Assembly (NCBI GenBank): GCA_017640665.1
Contig: JAEPQE010000004.1
Span: 1 to 64,000, forward strand
Reading direction: 5' to 3'
Length of the DNA stretch: 64,000 nt
From: Balneolaceae bacterium
Lineage (GTDB): Bacteria > Bacteroidota > Rhodothermia > Balneolales > Balneolaceae
The notes below the pieces were generated by a model that saw only the letters and a list, made by a program, of their open reading frames with translations, had not been told where the DNA came from and ran no database searches. Every line of letters starts with the position of its first letter. Within the stretch, counting starts at the first letter, position 1. Shown here one piece after another: positions 24,102 to 31,470 of this stretch. The position numbers were made by a program, and so were the translations under genes.

Positions 24102-25637
24102 TTACTGCCCTTCTCTCGAAATATCAATTATGGTAAGAGTAACGTCCAGTGAGGTAGCTGCGCCTTGTGCATCGGTAGCTATTATCCGGAAAGTGGTTTC
24201 GCCAATTTGCCGTTCGGTTGGAGTCCAGGTAAAGCGTCCTGTACGTTCATCAAGATTGGCTCCTTCCGGTAAATCAACTCCGAGATAACGGATTAATGAT
24301 CCGGTGGGATTCTCAGGATCAACAGCCTTGAAAGTGATTTCATAAGGATCATTTACCACAATGGATGAATTCCGAACCGGGCTAAACCGCGGTGGAGCAT
24401 TGAAAGTTCTAACATCCACAGAGAATCGTACACTGTCTACTTCTCCTTTCGAGTTGGAAGCTATAACTGTAAACCAGTTATATCCAACCTGGTTCACGGT
24501 GGGCTGCCAGAACAACCCTTGCTTTTTAAGGGAAGCGTTACTCACATTTGATCTATAAGTGAATTCAACATCTGCAGGGGGATAATTCCCTTCCAGTTCA
24601 ACTCCTAATAAAAGAGGTTTAGGATAGGTGAGAATCAAATTTTCAATGGGTTTAATCTTTAACTGAGCTGGATATTGAGGCTGATTCAATGTGGTTGCTT
24701 CAACAGCTTCTCCAATTTTTAGGGGGCTGAGCTTGTTAAAGATATTAAGCCAAACCGTGTAACTGCTTTTAGTGATGTGATTAGTAGGAGAAGATTCTGC
24801 TTTCCAGAGCTGGAATCGTTGTTCATTTGTTGAAATCCAGATTTTACCGGAAGCACCTCTTGCAAATACATGATTTCTCCAGCTCACTAAATCGGTCACG
24901 GATTCTTCAATATTTCCGAGATTTTTACCAAGCCCGTTCGCATTTACTTCAAAAATCTGTCCAGCTCCGGATGCTGCCCATATCAAGCCCTCATCCAAAA
25001 AAAGATGATGCAATTGAGCTCCGAGTTCCACTGTGGATTCGAGTCCGAATTCGCCTTCTTCGATTACAAAAACATGAATCTTAGCATCACTTGTAAGTAC
25101 AAAAAGTTGATTACTGATGATCGATGAAGCCACATCCAGCACATTCGCTCTTCCAATGATATCGTTTGCGACTAATTCCGCTTCGGAATCTACCGTTTCA
25201 GGGGTAGCCAGCGAAAGTTTGCCAAGGCCTTCACTTCCAAGCGCTACATATAAATCGTTTTGAAGTCGGGCAACACCCAAAGGACGCGATGGAAGCAAGG
25301 TTGAGGAATAAACTCCAAGTACAGAAGTCGGCTCAAGTACAGTAAGTCTTCGGGAATCACCATATAAATATGCAAAGCGAATATCTGTATCGATCACATT
25401 GCCACGACGTTGCATCCCGGATGAAGTGTACAGCCATTGAAGAGAATCCTCATAAGCCCGAAAAACTGCCATTCCCTCCGTCTCAGAAAGCACATATAGA
25501 TGGGACGAAGAAGCTTCCATTGTTTTTACATTCGGTATGTTCAGAACCCGGCCGTAATCCTGAATAATTTGGTTTTGCCCGAAAGCTTGTCCCAGGCTAA
25601 GTGAAAAAATAAAAAATAGTGCGGTGCTTCTGATCAT
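24102..25637 (-). CDS. secreted beta-propeller and Ig-domain protein
   Basis: A 511-residue exported protein with a signal peptide (MIRSTALFFIFSLSLGQAFG, cleavage near residue 20) and no lipobox cysteine. Residues about 30-300 look like a WD/NHL-type beta-propeller (repeated short hydrophobic strands such as SSHLYVLSETEGMAVF, NQLFVLTSDAKIHVFVI and LIWAASGAGQIFEV). Residues about 330-505 hold two putative Ig (He_PIG-like) domains; the second contains FTWTPTERQIGETTFRIIATDAQG. Probably periplasmic or on the surface; no enzyme motif is seen. It ends 6 bp after the epimerase-like gene on the same strand, so the two are probably co-transcribed. Confidence 0.8.
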   Translation of the reverse strand: MIRSTALFFIFSLSLGQAFGQNQIIQDYGRVLNIPNVKTMEASSSHLYVLSETEGMAVFRAYEDSLQWLYTSSGMQRRGNVIDTDIRFAYLYGDSRRLTVLEPTSVLGVYSSTLLPSRPLGVARLQNDLYVALGSEGLGKLSLATPETVDSEAELVANDIIGRANVLDVASSIISNQLFVLTSDAKIHVFVIEEGEFGLESTVELGAQLHHLFLDEGLIWAASGAGQIFEVNANGLGKNLGNIEESVTDLVSWRNHVFARGASGKIWISTNEQRFQLWKAESSPTNHITKSSYTVWLNIFNKLSPLKIGEAVEATTLNQPQYPAQLKIKPIENLILTYPKPLLLGVELEGNYPPADVEFTYRSNVSNASLKKQGLFWQPTVNQVGYNWFTVIASNSKGEVDSVRFSVDVRTFNAPPRFSPVRNSSIVVNDPYEITFKAVDPENPTGSLIRYLGVDLPEGANLDERTGRFTWTPTERQIGETTFRIIATDAQGAATSLDVTLTIIDISREGQ

Positions 25638-25643
25638 ATATGA

Positions 25644-26621
25644 TTATAGCCAATTGTGTTTCTTGTACCAACGAATGGTTCTGGAAAGTCCTTCCTGGAT
25701 GGTAATTTCGGGATCGTAGCCAAGCTCTTTTCTCGCTTTATCAGAAGAACAAACCCATTCAAGTACCATTTCGTTAGCTTTTTCCTTGTTAAGAACGGGA
25801 TACTTGCCGAATAATGATGCAGCATTTTCAACGACAGAAGCTAATTTTTTAACCCAGTCAGCTTTCAGTTTAACCGGAATAGCTTTCTTGCCCATCACAA
25901 TAGAAGTAATTTTACGAATCTGATTCCATGAATATTCGTTCTCAACTCCCCCGAGAAAGTAAGTATGAACACCCGTATCTGTTTTTTTGGCTGAAAGCAT
26001 AATTCCGTTTACTAAATCGCTCACATATACTAGGGAAAGGGTAGGATGGTTCCCGTCTCCAACCATTGGACATATTCCGGTATTAAAGGTTTTGAAGAAG
26101 GTATAAATATCGGACTCCCGTGGACCATAAACAGCCGGAGGGCGAATAATCTTTATACTGTCAGATTTCCCTGCAATTTTATGGATTATCGTTTCCATTT
26201 CTTTTTTAGATTCCCCGTACATACTCACCGGGTTCATTCGTGCTTTTTCAGTAAGAGGAATTCCGGAACTTGGACCCACTCCTGCAAGAGAAGAGGTAAT
26301 AACGATATTCTTGATTCCTTTTTTCTGAGCAATTCGGATCAGGTTCTCAGTGGCCTCTACATTAGCACGGGTAAATGCTTTTTTTGATGGTGCCCGTAGC
26401 ACTGCTGCATTATGAAAAATGACATCAACTCCCTCCAGAGCTTTTCCAATGGCCTGTAGATCGAACAAATCCCCTTTAATTTTTGTGAAATCTAATCCGG
26501 TCAACCACTTGTCAGAAGTTCTTACCAAACAACGTACTTCAGAGTAGTTTGTATCTGCAATTAAAGCTTCTACCAGGTGACTCCCAACAAATCCGGTACC
26601 ACCGGTTACAAAGGCTTTCAT
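25644..26621 (-). CDS. NAD-dependent epimerase/dehydratase, candidate ceramide reductase (CerR)
   Basis: A 325-residue extended short-chain dehydrogenase/reductase. The N-terminal nucleotide-binding motif is GGTGFVGSH (7-15), followed by VIFHNAAVLRAPS, TSSLAG and the active-site YGESK. Proteins annotated this way next to serine palmitoyltransferase include the bacterial ceramide reductase CerR described in Caulobacter, which reduces the 3-oxo group of the oxidised ceramide. That role is inferred from the neighbours: glycosyltransferases, SPT and a GNAT protein lie divergently across 105 bp. A sugar-nucleotide or steroid-type reductase cannot be excluded. Confidence 0.78.
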   Translation of the reverse strand: MKAFVTGGTGFVGSHLVEALIADTNYSEVRCLVRTSDKWLTGLDFTKIKGDLFDLQAIGKALEGVDVIFHNAAVLRAPSKKAFTRANVEATENLIRIAQKKGIKNIVITSSLAGVGPSSGIPLTEKARMNPVSMYGESKKEMETIIHKIAGKSDSIKIIRPPAVYGPRESDIYTFFKTFNTGICPMVGDGNHPTLSLVYVSDLVNGIMLSAKKTDTGVHTYFLGGVENEYSWNQIRKITSIVMGKKAIPVKLKADWVKKLASVVENAASLFGKYPVLNKEKANEMVLEWVCSSDKARKELGYDPEITIQEGLSRTIRWYKKHNWL

Positions 26622-26726
26622 AAATGCGTATATTTTCGGATTAAATTTTGCGAACGTAACCAGTTAGAAACTAAGGCCGGTTAATAGAGTAGAAGATACG
26701 AATCTGGATTTTGCTTTTAAACTTTT

Positions 26727-27884
26727 ATGACAGAACTACGAGTTGCTCTTTTTACGGGTAATTACAATCACATCAGAGATGGAGTTTCCCTTACCTTAAA
26801 TAGGTTGGTGCACTATCTGGAGAGTCAGGATATACCTGTATTGGTATTTGGGCCCAGTGTTAAGAATCCAGCGATCGATCATTGTGGGGAATTGGTGGTT
26901 ACTCCTTCTATTCCAATGTTAGTGCCGGGAAGAGAAGAATACCGTATTGCAACTCATTTTTCCCGTTCTGCAAAAAAAAGACTGGAAGAATTTAATCCTA
27001 CCCTGATTCATATTGCCACACCCGATGGACTTGGAATCGGAGGGTTACGATGGGCGAAGAAACATGGGATTCCAAAAGTGACTTCTTATCACACACATTT
27101 TCTTAGCTACGCCGATTATTATGCGACTTATTTAAACCCGATCAAAAAACCATTCAAAATGTTGATGAAATGGTTTTATAAGCAATTTACTCATACCTAT
27201 GTACCGTCACAGTCGATGATAGATGAACTTCACAATGAAGGTATCCCGGGGAATATGAAAATCTGGGCAAGAGGTATTGATACCGAGCGCTTCAATCCGG
27301 GTAAACGTGATATGGAATGGCGCAGAAGTGTAGGCTTTGATGATGACGATATCGTGGTCACTTTTGTATCAAGGTTGGTTTGGGAAAAAGAACTTCGTAC
27401 CTATATCGACAGTGTAAGCCGTATTCAGAAAAAATATCCAAAAGTAAGAGCGTTGATTGTTGGCGATGGACAAGCCCGTAAGGAAGCGGAGCAACTTTTA
27501 CCAAACGGACATTTTACGGGGTTTGCAAAGGGAGAAGACTTAGCCCGTGCCTATGCCAGCGCAGATATTTTTCTCTTTCCTTCACATACAGAAACCTTTG
27601 GGAATGTAACCCTGGAGGCAATGTCGAGTGGACTACCATGTATAGTAGCAGATGCAATCGGAAGTAAGTCTTTGGTGGATAATGGAGTGAATGGTTTTTG
27701 GGCGAAAAAAGAAAGCGTAGATGATTTTACAAATCAACTTGAAAAAGTAGTTGCAGATTCAGAAATGAGAATCAAAATGGGAAAAACATCCCGCAAGATG
27801 GCAATGGAGTATGAATGGGACTCAATTAATGCCGGGCTGGTAAAAAATTATCGGGAAGTACTCAAAAACTCTAAAAAAGGATAG
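26727..27884 (+). CDS. glycosyltransferase family 4 protein
   Basis: A 385-residue GT-B fold retaining glycosyltransferase. The N-terminal domain holds LFTGNYNHIRDGVSLTLNRL. The C-terminal nucleotide-sugar site has LIVGDGQARKE and FPSHTETFGNVTLEAMSSG (E-x7-E). The pattern resembles the GDP-mannose-dependent or SQD2-type lipid glycosyltransferases, which add a sugar to a membrane lipid. It is the first gene of a plus-strand run with a second glycosyltransferase, SPT and a GNAT protein, so glycosylation of a sphingolipid head group is a reasonable inference. Acceptor and sugar are unknown. Confidence 0.85.
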   Translation: MTELRVALFTGNYNHIRDGVSLTLNRLVHYLESQDIPVLVFGPSVKNPAIDHCGELVVTPSIPMLVPGREEYRIATHFSRSAKKRLEEFNPTLIHIATPDGLGIGGLRWAKKHGIPKVTSYHTHFLSYADYYATYLNPIKKPFKMLMKWFYKQFTHTYVPSQSMIDELHNEGIPGNMKIWARGIDTERFNPGKRDMEWRRSVGFDDDDIVVTFVSRLVWEKELRTYIDSVSRIQKKYPKVRALIVGDGQARKEAEQLLPNGHFTGFAKGEDLARAYASADIFLFPSHTETFGNVTLEAMSSGLPCIVADAIGSKSLVDNGVNGFWAKKESVDDFTNQLEKVVADSEMRIKMGKTSRKMAMEYEWDSINAGLVKNYREVLKNSKKG

Positions 27885-27886
27885 AT

Positions 27887-29017
27887 TTGCGGATACTGTA
27901 TATTTCACATCTCCATCCTCCTGAAAACGCACCTCTTAAAAGTATTGGAGGTATGCAACGTGTAAGCATGCAGCTGGTGGAAGAATTAGAGCGAAGAGAT
28001 GATGTGGAAATTAAAACAATCATACAGCATGCTCCGTGGAAAGGCATAGAGATCAGGACTTCTTTTTTCCTTGCAAGACTGGCAAGAAAGCTTCCAGGAA
28101 TTGTCGACGAGTTTAAGCCGAATGTAATTCTTTTTTCCTCAATGGTGACTGCGAGTTTAGCTAAAATTACCAGATCCAGAGTGGATGTGCCGATGGTAAC
28201 CATCAACCACGGACAGGATGTGAAAATGCCCATCGGGATTTATCAAAAATTTATTCCAAAAGTATTTGATGCTTTGGACGGAGTAATTTCGGTATCAAAA
28301 GCCACCCGGGAAGAATGCATTAAGAGAGGAATGGATCCCGGAAAAGGAATAGCGCTCCCGAACGGATTCGATATGTCGGATTTCAAGGAAGTTCCGGATC
28401 GAAATGAAGCGTTGAAAGCAATAGAAAAGATATTTTCAATTGATCTTTCCGGTAAACATGTTTTACTGACGGTTGGAAGACAGGTTAAGCGAAAGGGACA
28501 CGAGTGGTTTATCAAAGAGGTGCTTCCAAAAATAAATTCTGAAGTTATTTATTTGGCAATTGGAGATGGACCGGAGCATGAAAATCTTATTAACGTGCGC
28601 TCTCAATCGTATTTAAAAGAGAAAATTATACTGGCAGGGAAACAACCTGATTCGGTTTTGAAGAAAGCTTATTCAGCAGCAGATGTATTTATCATGCCAA
28701 ACGTGCCGGTATCCGGAGATATGGAAGGTTTTGGAATTGTATTACTTGAAGCAAACCTCGCTGCTACCCCTGCGGTAGCCTCCGACCTTGAAGGCATAAA
28801 AGATGTTGTTGAGGATGGAATGAATGGGTATAAAATCCCTATTTATGAACCAGAAATATTTGCAGAGAAGATTGATGAAGTTCTCCAAAATGGGATTCTG
28901 AAATTAGGCAAACAGAGTAGAAGCTTTGTTGAGCAAAACTTTGCATGGAATAAAGTTGCTGAACGATATATTTCGTACCTTCAGCAAGTAGTAGAAAATT
29001 ATAAAAGCAGCCATTAG
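27887..29017 (+). CDS. glycosyltransferase family 4 protein
   Basis: A 376-residue GT-B glycosyltransferase. MRILYISHLHPPENAP and SIGGMQRVSMQLVEEL form the donor-domain start. The C-terminal motif is VPVSGDMEGFGIVLLEANLA. The start is a TTG at 27887, only 2 bp after the upstream stop: the protein read from it has a perfect family N-terminus and no ATG is available. It is translationally coupled to the first glycosyltransferase, so the two probably add successive sugars to one acceptor, perhaps a ceramide made by the neighbouring enzymes. Confidence 0.85.
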   Translation: MRILYISHLHPPENAPLKSIGGMQRVSMQLVEELERRDDVEIKTIIQHAPWKGIEIRTSFFLARLARKLPGIVDEFKPNVILFSSMVTASLAKITRSRVDVPMVTINHGQDVKMPIGIYQKFIPKVFDALDGVISVSKATREECIKRGMDPGKGIALPNGFDMSDFKEVPDRNEALKAIEKIFSIDLSGKHVLLTVGRQVKRKGHEWFIKEVLPKINSEVIYLAIGDGPEHENLINVRSQSYLKEKIILAGKQPDSVLKKAYSAADVFIMPNVPVSGDMEGFGIVLLEANLAATPAVASDLEGIKDVVEDGMNGYKIPIYEPEIFAEKIDEVLQNGILKLGKQSRSFVEQNFAWNKVAERYISYLQQVVENYKSSH

Positions 29018-29103
29018 CAAGTCATAAGCCATTCAATTTGAAAGGAATTCAATACTAGCTATATTGCAACGTTTATTTAGAAAATTTGGTAAGGATCAAC
29101 CGT

Positions 29104-30336
29104 ATGGGTGATAGTAAAAAAGCAGCTACAAACGATATTTTTTCAAAAGCTTATAACTTTACGAAGGCTGATGAAGTTAAGGCAATGGGCTTGTACCCCT
29201 ATTTCAAGCCTTTGGAAGCAACAGATGGTACCATTGTAGAGATTGAAGGTCATGAAGTAATCATGGCGGGTTCTAATAATTATCTTGGGTTAACCAACGA
29301 TCAGCGAACCATTAAAGCCGCACAAGATGCTCTCACAAAATACGGGACCGGTTGTACAGGGTCACGTTACCTGAACGGGACGTTAGATATCCATTTAGAG
29401 CTGGAAGAAAAGCTTGCCAAATTTTTAGGCAAAGAATCCTGTGTACTTTTCAGTACCGGTTACCAAACCAATGAAGGATCCATTCAAACTATTGCAGCCC
29501 GTAACGATCTCATTTTTTCTGACAGAGATAATCACGCCTGCATCGTAGTTGGAACCTTAGTTTCGAACGCGAAAACCATTCGTTATCAACATAATGATAT
29601 GGATCAACTTCGTAAAATGCTGGAAAAGGCCGATCCCGCTGCTGGTAAGATCATCATTACCGACGGAGTATTTTCCATGTCCGGGACTCTTGCCAAAATT
29701 CCGGAGCTAGTCGCACTTGCTAAAGAATTTGATGCCCGACTTTATTTAGATGATGCTCATGCCGTTGGGGTTATTGGGGATGGAGGCCGTGGTTCTGCAT
29801 CCGTTTTCGGATTAACGGATCAGGTGGATCTAATTAGTGGAACTTTCTCAAAATCATTCGCATCTCTCGGTGGGTTTTTAGTAGGAGAAAGACCGGTAAT
29901 CGAATTTATTCGCCATCATTCTCCGGCACATATTTTTAGTGCATCTATGCCTCCTGCCAATGTTGCAACAGTATTAAAAGCGCTTGAAATTCTTCAGGAA
30001 GAACCATGGAGAGTTAAACGGTTGGAAGAGATTTCTTTATACATGAGAACCGAGTTAAATAATCTTGGATTCAATGTATGGACCAGTGAATCACCTATTA
30101 TCCCGGTAGTAATTGGTGATATGATGAAGTGTTTCCAGTTCTGGAAAGATTTGTTTGAAGAAGGAGTGTACACGAATGCGGTAATTCCTCCTGCTGTTCC
30201 TCAGGGCCAATCACTTCTGCGTACCAGCTATATGGCAAGTCATACCGATGATCATTTAAACCAAATCCTTGAAGCTTTCCGAAAAATCGGGCTTAAGCAT
30301 GGTTTAATTGACAACAATGGCCACTCTGCGGAGTAA
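29104..30336 (+). CDS. spt: serine palmitoyltransferase
   Basis: PLP enzyme that condenses serine with a fatty acyl thioester to 3-ketosphinganine, the first step of sphingolipid synthesis. From ATG 29104 it is 410 residues; AAGGA about 8 bp upstream supports this start over a TTG at 29086. GSNNYLGLT, YGTGCTGSRYLNGTLDIH, DDAHAVGVIG and the PLP lysine K250 in GTFSKSFASLGGF match the Bacteroidota SPT of Sphingobacterium more closely than KBL or BioF. It lies between two glycosyltransferases and a GNAT-fold protein. Confidence 0.88.
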   Translation: MGDSKKAATNDIFSKAYNFTKADEVKAMGLYPYFKPLEATDGTIVEIEGHEVIMAGSNNYLGLTNDQRTIKAAQDALTKYGTGCTGSRYLNGTLDIHLELEEKLAKFLGKESCVLFSTGYQTNEGSIQTIAARNDLIFSDRDNHACIVVGTLVSNAKTIRYQHNDMDQLRKMLEKADPAAGKIIITDGVFSMSGTLAKIPELVALAKEFDARLYLDDAHAVGVIGDGGRGSASVFGLTDQVDLISGTFSKSFASLGGFLVGERPVIEFIRHHSPAHIFSASMPPANVATVLKALEILQEEPWRVKRLEEISLYMRTELNNLGFNVWTSESPIIPVVIGDMMKCFQFWKDLFEEGVYTNAVIPPAVPQGQSLLRTSYMASHTDDHLNQILEAFRKIGLKHGLIDNNGHSAE

Positions 30337-30348
30337 ACCCGTTCTACT

Positions 30349-31470
30349 ATGAGTACGAGCGGAGTTACTGTTGTTACCACTGATAATGAGAAAAAGAAAT
30401 TCATAGAATTTCAATACGATCATTATAGAACAGACGGTCATTTTGTCCCACCATTAAGGATGGATCAAAAGAAACTCATCAATACTGAGAAAAATCCGTT
30501 CTTCAACAACGCGGAAATCACATTATTTATAGCAGAACATGAGGGTGAAGTAGCCGGGCGTATTGCCGCGGTTGTAGATCATCGCTTTAACGAACATCAC
30601 AATAGAAAAACCGGGCACTTTGGATTTTTTGAGTGTATTGATCATCAGCCAACAGCAGATTTACTTTTCAGAGTAGCCGAAGACTGGCTCCGCGATAAAG
30701 GGATGGAAGATGTACTTGGACCTACAAATCCCGGAATGATGGACATGCTGGGTTTTTTGGTAGATGGATTTGATAAAGATCCATACATCCTGATGCCATA
30801 TACAAAACCCTATTACGAAAAACTCGCTACGTCTGCAGGCTATGAACAAGCCATAGATCTATTGGCATACATTATTGATAAAGACTCTGCAGATCTTGAG
30901 AGAAGTGAAAGAGCCAAGAAGATTGTGTTGCAAAGAAATCCGGGATTGAAGATCCGTCCGTTAAATCTGAAAAAGATTCACGAGGAGGTAGAAATTGTTC
31001 GTGGAATCTATAACGAGACCTGGAAGGATAACTGGGGGTTTTTACCGCTTACACAAGAAGAACTGGCTGCTACTGCAGATGATTTTAAGTTAATTCTGGA
31101 TGCTGATCTTGCACATATAGCGGAAATGAATGGAAAGCCAGTGGCTTTTTCTATTGGACTTCCTGATCTGAATATCATCTTTAAAAAGATGAATGGGAAC
31201 CTGTTTCCATTCGGAATTTTTAAACTGCTATTAGGTCGCAGAAAGATTAAAAGATACCGTACAGCATTAATGGGAGTGCTTCCTGAAGTTCGGGGAAGAG
31301 GAATCGACGCGCTTCTCCATCAGGCGGCGATAGAAAAGGCGCTCCCAAGAGGGATTGATACTTCTGAACTAAGTTGGGTACTAGGAAATAACCCTGATAT
31401 GATCAGAACTGCTGAGAGGCTTGGAGCAAGTCTCGACAAAACCTATCGAATGTATTCCAAAAAGCTGTGA
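30349..31470 (+). CDS. GNAT-fold protein, candidate bacterial ceramide synthase (bCerS)
   Basis: A 373-residue protein of a long GNAT-like family, starting 12 bp after spt. Typical segments are HFVPPLRMDQ, NPFFNNAEITLFIAE, GRIAAVVDHRFNEHH, HFGFFECID, DVLGPTNPGMMDMLGFLVDGF and, at the C-terminus, MGVLPEVRGRGIDALLH, the acyl-CoA loop of an acetyltransferase fold. Proteins of this type next to spt include the ceramide synthase described in Caulobacter, which attaches an acyl chain to the sphingoid amine. The assignment here is from family pattern plus gene order; I cannot confirm orthology. Confidence 0.75.
   Translation: MSTSGVTVVTTDNEKKKFIEFQYDHYRTDGHFVPPLRMDQKKLINTEKNPFFNNAEITLFIAEHEGEVAGRIAAVVDHRFNEHHNRKTGHFGFFECIDHQPTADLLFRVAEDWLRDKGMEDVLGPTNPGMMDMLGFLVDGFDKDPYILMPYTKPYYEKLATSAGYEQAIDLLAYIIDKDSADLERSERAKKIVLQRNPGLKIRPLNLKKIHEEVEIVRGIYNETWKDNWGFLPLTQEELAATADDFKLILDADLAHIAEMNGKPVAFSIGLPDLNIIFKKMNGNLFPFGIFKLLLGRRKIKRYRTALMGVLPEVRGRGIDALLHQAAIEKALPRGIDTSELSWVLGNNPDMIRTAERLGASLDKTYRMYSKKL

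Follow-up and report, generated by a model that had tools for sequence, protein, structure and literature searches.

The window analyzed here is a stretch of 64,000 nucleotides from a Balneolaceae bacterium. At positions 25644-31470 it carries a conserved gene unit of the Balneolales, and the arrangement of these genes is not due to chance. Four genes form a run on the plus strand (26727-31470). Two glycosyltransferase genes, GTa (26727-27884) and GTb (27887-29017), are followed by a gene for a predicted serine palmitoyltransferase (SPT, 29086-30336, with the ATG at 29104 as a possible alternative start) and by a gene for a GNAT protein (30349-31470). The gaps between them measure 2, 68, and 12 bp. 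Divergent from this run, on the minus strand and separated from it by 105 bp, lies a gene for an extended short-chain dehydrogenase/reductase (SDR) resembling the ceramide reductase CerR (25644-26621). Pfam assigns an Epimerase domain to the reductase, GT4 domains to both glycosyltransferases, and Aminotran_1_2 to SPT, and finds a GNAT match in the C-terminal half of the last protein. The list of open reading frames and Pfam thus bear out the five genes of the original prediction with their positions, strands and spacing, including the two coupled GT4 genes ahead of SPT.

The divergent intergenic region (26622-26726) is presumed from its sequence to be the promoter of both arms. Since scans for promoters and terminators showed no enrichment relative to shuffled sequence, this role stays a presumption. 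The cluster reaches one gene further than originally described. Six base pairs after the CerR-like gene follows, also on the minus strand, a gene for a predicted secreted protein (24102-25637) with a signal peptide recognized by eye, a beta-propeller and Ig-like domains (He_PIG/Big_9 in Pfam). Its AF2 model (pLDDT 84.5) is all-beta and matches propellers; the fold search returned generic propellers only. All 20 Balneolales relatives have the propeller/Ig gene next to their CerR-like gene, and no full-length relative of its product was found in 10 Rhodothermales genomes.

The order of reductase, GTa, SPT and GNAT is kept in all 20 relatives, which cover five families of the Balneolales. In full the order reads Ig protein and epimerase-like reductase on one arm, and GTa, usually GTb, SPT and GNAT on the other. 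GTb is present in 17 of the 20 and absent or swapped for another GT4 protein in three. We found the same order independently in 22 Balneolales-type loci, where the contigs were long enough, again with GTb missing or replaced in some. The Gracilimonas loci carry a different GT4 gene at the place of GTb, and in some other Balneolales this place is empty. When the GNAT alignment was used to search named genomes, Balneola, Gracilimonas, Fodinibius, and other Balneolaceae came out as the closest; Fodinibius roseus has the cluster. The Balneolales are mostly salt-loving bacteria. In Bacteroidota the three ceramide genes often do not lie near one another (PMC11334938), so a tight cluster is mildly unusual. 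Neither an acyl carrier protein (ACP) gene nor an acyl-ACP synthetase gene was found in the cluster. Among the genomes seen, the arrangement of the glycosyltransferase pair with the ceramide genes is specific to the Balneolales.

The predicted serine palmitoyltransferase and ceramide synthase

The best solved relatives of the SPT protein are the Sphingobacterium SPT structures 3A2B and 8GUH (E = 3e-126, about 425 bits), with 51% identity over 381 positions. The next solved relative is of the KBL/BioF type and reaches about 286 bits. All six catalytic residues of the Sphingobacterium multivorum enzyme that we checked (Asn52, His138, Asp210, His213, Lys244, and Arg367) are present as N64, H150, D222, H225, K256, and R379. 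The top NCBIfam model is the SPT model NF047600 with 498.6 bits, below its cut-off of 640, which is an annotation threshold and not an enzyme property and which probably reflects the Bacteroidia/Flavobacteriia seed; the protein also stays below the cut-offs of all other SPT models. The genome contains only two other alpha-oxoamine synthases, both nearest to the BioF model and 35-36% identical. A KBL/BioF identity is ruled out, since the genome has these two separate BioF-like proteins and the SPT matches score higher. The original assignment as SPT is upheld.

The protein encoded 12 bp downstream of SPT is predicted to be a tandem-GNAT N-acyltransferase of the bacterial ceramide synthase (bCerS) type. 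Pairwise BLAST yields full-length homologues with 36-41% identity (E = 1e-78 to 1e-100), namely 36% for Sphingomonas parapaucimobilis, 41% for Rubrobacter, 37% for Streptomyces, and 37% for Escherichia coli YghO; an Aureispira homologue is 33% identical. In this comparison the Sphingomonas homologue takes the place of the Caulobacter protein. According to annotated plasmid records, the homologues from Rubrobacter, Streptomyces, S. parapaucimobilis, Klebsiella, and E. coli (yghO) are encoded with SPT and an NAD-dependent SDR. The GNAT genes of Sphingomonas and E. coli are found alongside SPT, ACP, and CerR-like genes, in S. parapaucimobilis at a distance of 6 kb from SPT-ACP-CerR. SPT lies directly upstream of the GNAT gene in 42 of 58 loci outside the Balneolales; these loci were fetched with the GNAT as query and are a non-random sample of genomes, while their neighbors were not selected for.

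NCBIfam has no model for this GNAT, and no solved acetyltransferase is near it in sequence. The structure prediction that had been proposed for the protein, made with homologues from the fetched loci, gives a confident tandem GNAT fold (AF2, pLDDT 89.9). The best match in the fold search, MAB_4324 with 15% identity, says tandem GNAT only and carries no functional information. Several GNATs of the broader family are not beside SPT, including a 40% identical paralogue in the same genome, and homology alone is therefore no proof of ceramide synthase activity. It is homology together with adjacency to SPT that does most of the work in the predicted bCerS assignment. With full-length homologues encoded together with SPT and CerR-like genes and no solved acetyltransferase close in sequence, the original reading as a bCerS-type GNAT has held up.

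The glycosyltransferase pair, the reductase and alternative readings

GTa is predicted to add the first head-group sugar to a lipid acceptor and GTb the second. The EX7E motif is found in 21/21 GTa orthologues and in every GTb orthologue checked. The best NCBIfam models for GTa, both under cut-off, are the N-acetylglucosaminyl-PG synthase and the alpha-monoglucosyl-DAG synthase, and the nearest solved structure to GTb is the phospholipid mannosyltransferase PimA. GTa occurs in 100/100 genomes of the class searched, in the genome of the window as one copy (at E = 1e-50). It has relatives in Acinetobacter and Pseudomonas, and its best plasmid-borne relatives are in Sphingomonadaceae, on plasmids where SPT is not adjacent.

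In the sister order Rhodothermales, for which we looked at nine genomes, SPT is directly beside the GNAT gene in seven and 5 kb off in an eighth, while the ninth has no SPT gene within 9 kb of its GNAT gene. The GTa-GTb pair is found apart from SPT-bCerS in this order and the SDR (41-47% identity) at yet another site. The pair has three further neighbors in 5 of 11 Rhodothermales glycosyltransferase loci, namely genes for an exporter of the MMPL family, a DUF3047 protein, and a protein resembling LPG-synthase-TM. Homologues of these three lie together on contig 3 of the window genome. The pair is thus an independent and presumably lipid-related unit which in Balneolales is found inside the ceramide locus.

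The diacylglycerol and phosphatidylglycerol glycosyltransferase models, the separation in Rhodothermales with the MMPL/DUF3047 neighbors, and the wide occurrence of GTa would also suit a locus where ceramide is made while the acceptor of GTa and GTb is diacylglycerol or some other lipid; their proximity to SPT would then reflect co-regulation of membrane lipids rather than synthesis of the ceramide head group. We take this possibility seriously and place it a little short of even. Against it speaks the position of the pair, which throughout the Balneolales has the CerR-like gene on one side and SPT on the other. The Sphingomonadaceae, which harbor the best plasmid-borne relatives of GTa, are moreover also home to the nearest outside relatives of the Caulobacter ceramide glycosyltransferases Sgt1 and Sgt2 (PMC6445935), and the alpha-galactosylceramide synthase of Bacteroides fragilis is itself a GT4 enzyme that clusters with diacylglycerol glycosyltransferases (PMC9692976). 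Because of the linkage in Balneolales and the precedent of the adjacent Sgt1 and Sgt2 (PMC6445935), ceramide is the likeliest acceptor. By this analogy, glycosylation of ceramide by GTa and GTb appears plausible and modestly favored.

The divergent reductase is a predicted ceramide (3-keto) reductase, with Epimerase/3Beta_HSD matches in Pfam. We built a CerR profile solely from those SDRs in the plasmid records that are linked to SPT, without the window protein. In the genome this profile finds the window protein with 260 bits (3.7e-77) and the next protein with 84 bits (1e-23), a match which falls inside the huge SDR superfamily. In a maximum-likelihood tree with long branches, whose deep nodes are uncertain and in part weak, the protein groups with the SPT-linked proteins and is separated (95/83) from five further SDRs of the same genome. 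The cofactor motif, the Ser and YxxxK are all kept. These scores and the tree are in line with the original suggestion that the divergent epimerase-like protein fits CerR. Caulobacter CerR is reported to be periplasmic (PMC11087976); for the window protein we saw no signal peptide by eye, and it begins directly with the Rossmann motif as do its homologues, including that of Sphingomonas.

A CerR-like gene adjoins 33 of the 42 distant SPT-GNAT pairs by our own count, 30 times divergently, once upstream on the same strand, and twice downstream. Such an SDR stands beside SPT-GNAT in Ignavibacteria, Melioribacter, KSB1, Zixibacteria, Planctomycetota, and others. Near the distant SPT-GNAT loci we did not find GTa or GTb; all 58 loci together gave a single weak GT4 match. 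Since the SDR stays beside SPT-GNAT where GTa and GTb are absent nearby, it should serve SPT-GNAT rather than the glycosyltransferases. This argues against a sugar epimerase or dehydratase (HpnA- or GalE-like) which feeds a nucleotide sugar to the glycosyltransferases while some other SDR reduces the ketone. The NAD-dependent epimerase Pfam match and the best NCBIfam model, HpnA (150 bits, cut-off 368), would fit such an enzyme, but the protein is the best match of its genome to the SPT-linked CerR-like proteins, and with the profile scores and the tree as they are we consider the epimerase improbable.

Sulfonolipids occur in Bacteroidota, and Aquimarina encodes a related GNAT at a distance of about 3 kb from an enzyme of the Lys type (SulA-like). 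That the locus is a sulfonolipid (capnine) locus, whose first enzyme uses cysteate and whose GNAT and reductase finish N-acyl-capnine, is nevertheless ruled out for practical purposes, because the diagnostic site, Lys281 in SulA and Ala in SPT (PMC9304779), is Ala286 in the window SPT and not the lysine of SulA and CFAT, is Ala in 41/41 aligned Balneolales SPTs having a residue at this column, and because the cysteate acyltransferase reaches 227 bits against 425 for SPT. Sequences inspected around this site show FSAS, with Ala.

The predicted pathway and known systems

Taken together, it is very probable that the locus encodes a complete dihydroceramide (ceramide) pathway. Homology, conserved catalytic residues and a gene neighborhood conserved across phyla support the ceramide part. 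We infer the enzymatic activities as well as the acceptor and the sugars of the glycosyltransferase pair, and the order of the reactions is taken from Caulobacter. SPT would condense serine with a fatty acyl thioester and so yield 3-ketosphinganine, which the tandem-GNAT bCerS would then N-acylate to 3-keto-dihydroceramide. The keto group of this product would be reduced by the CerR-like SDR. Finally GTa and then GTb, or a substitute GT4 protein as in Gracilimonas, would most likely add one or two sugars to the ceramide. One could speculate that glycosylated dihydroceramides are made throughout the class, in Balneolales and Rhodothermales alike. The near-universal GTa would then attach the first sugar, a second and exchangeable GT4 protein would determine the outer head group, and the MMPL-DUF3047-LPG-synthase-TM group would export the product to the outer membrane; this wider picture we regard as doubtful.

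Bacterial sphingolipids shape outer-membrane properties and the interactions with hosts and phages. The ceramide pathway itself is already known, and its presence in Balneolales together with the arrangement of the glycosyltransferase pair is a modest extension. The Balneolales seem to be a group for which sphingolipids were not reported before, and our literature search found no paper naming Balneolaceae together with sphingolipid. For Fodinibius alkaliphilus two unidentified glycolipids and two aminolipids are described (PMC12260241), which is compatible with the glycosphingolipid reading but not specific to it. If our reading is right, the entire order is predicted to produce ceramides and probably glycosphingolipids. 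The divergent CerR/SPT-bCerS arrangement could then be used as a genomic signature, and GTa and GTb would be specific candidates for the enzymes that glycosylate ceramide in bacteria, of which little is known.

Among the known systems, Caulobacter crescentus with its Spt-bCerS-CerR pathway (PMC11087976) has the same three enzyme classes as well as two adjacent glycosyltransferases; Sgt1 and Sgt2 are ceramide-specific and act in sequence on ceramide (PMC6445935). The Caulobacter glycosyltransferase genes (CCNA_00792/00793) are, however, PhoB-regulated and away from the SPT gene (CCNA_01220), whereas here GTa, GTb, SPT and bCerS form one run on a single strand, with CerR divergent and without an ACP gene. 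The SPT-ACP-CerR-bCerS loci of S. parapaucimobilis and of E. coli and Klebsiella (yghO) encode a homologous SPT, a CerR-like protein and a GNAT. These loci contain ACP in addition, those of Sphingomonas and E. coli also LptF/LptG-like genes, and those of the enterobacteria a fatty acyl-AMP ligase. Their SPTs are only 35-39% identical to the window SPT, and there is no GT4 pair beside these loci. The cassette of the Ignavibacteria/Melioribacter type which we found has a divergent CerR-like gene and adjacent SPT and bCerS genes, but without GTa and GTb between CerR and SPT.

On the level of the single proteins, the SPT of S. multivorum (3A2B, 8GUH) shares about 51% identity and the same active site, and the window SPT differs from it by an N-terminal extension of about 13 residues. 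Alistipes SulA and Chryseobacterium CFAT belong to the same PLP fold and family, with Lys281 of SulA replaced by Ala in the window SPT. The alpha-galactosylceramide synthase of B. fragilis (BF9343_3149) is a GT4 enzyme whose nearest solved relative is PimA, as it is for GTb (PMC9692976).

Neighbouring genes and a putative promoter

In Balneolales the gene for the predicted ceramide reductase (CerR-like) always has a gene for a secreted propeller/Ig protein as its neighbour, which in the window occupies 24102-25637. Full-length relatives of this window protein were not found in 10 Rhodothermales genomes. The 68-bp gap 5′ of the predicted serine palmitoyltransferase (SPT) gene (29018-29085) contains TTTG and TATATTG, spaced by about 19 bp; to judge from the motifs, the pair resembles a Bacteroidota-type promoter and is a putative promoter.

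In Rhodothermales the two GT4 glycosyltransferase genes GTa and GTb are repeatedly adjoined by MMPL, DUF3047 and LPG-synthase-TM-like genes (comparison loci L204, L206, L210, L216 and L218), a candidate group for glycolipid export. Homologues of all three are clustered with a Wzi-like outer-membrane gene on contig 3 of the window genome (about 484000-493000; L238).

Further bCerS-like GNATs and sphingolipid-type loci

The window genome encodes a second GNAT resembling bacterial ceramide synthase (bCerS) on contig 5 (49577-50680; L072:8566-9687), 40% identical to that of the window. It has no adjacent SPT gene and groups with an Ignavibacteria protein, and no counterpart of comparable similarity was found among the other Balneolales searched.

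In a Caldithrix MAG, divergent CerR-like and bCerS-like genes have no SPT in between (L127:3892-6278).

In Aquimarina sediminis a bCerS-like GNAT and an SPT-like enzyme are encoded about 3 kb apart (L160:10001-15396). The latter carries lysine at the position of Lys281 of the cysteate acyltransferase SulA, and the GNAT is possibly the N-acyltransferase of sulfonolipid synthesis. The yghO region of the E. coli plasmid NZ_MG591698.1 (L067), which adjoins glc genes, comprises SPT, ACP, CerR-like SDR, acyl-AMP ligase, LptF/LptG-like and YghO genes and is by gene content a sphingolipid-type locus.
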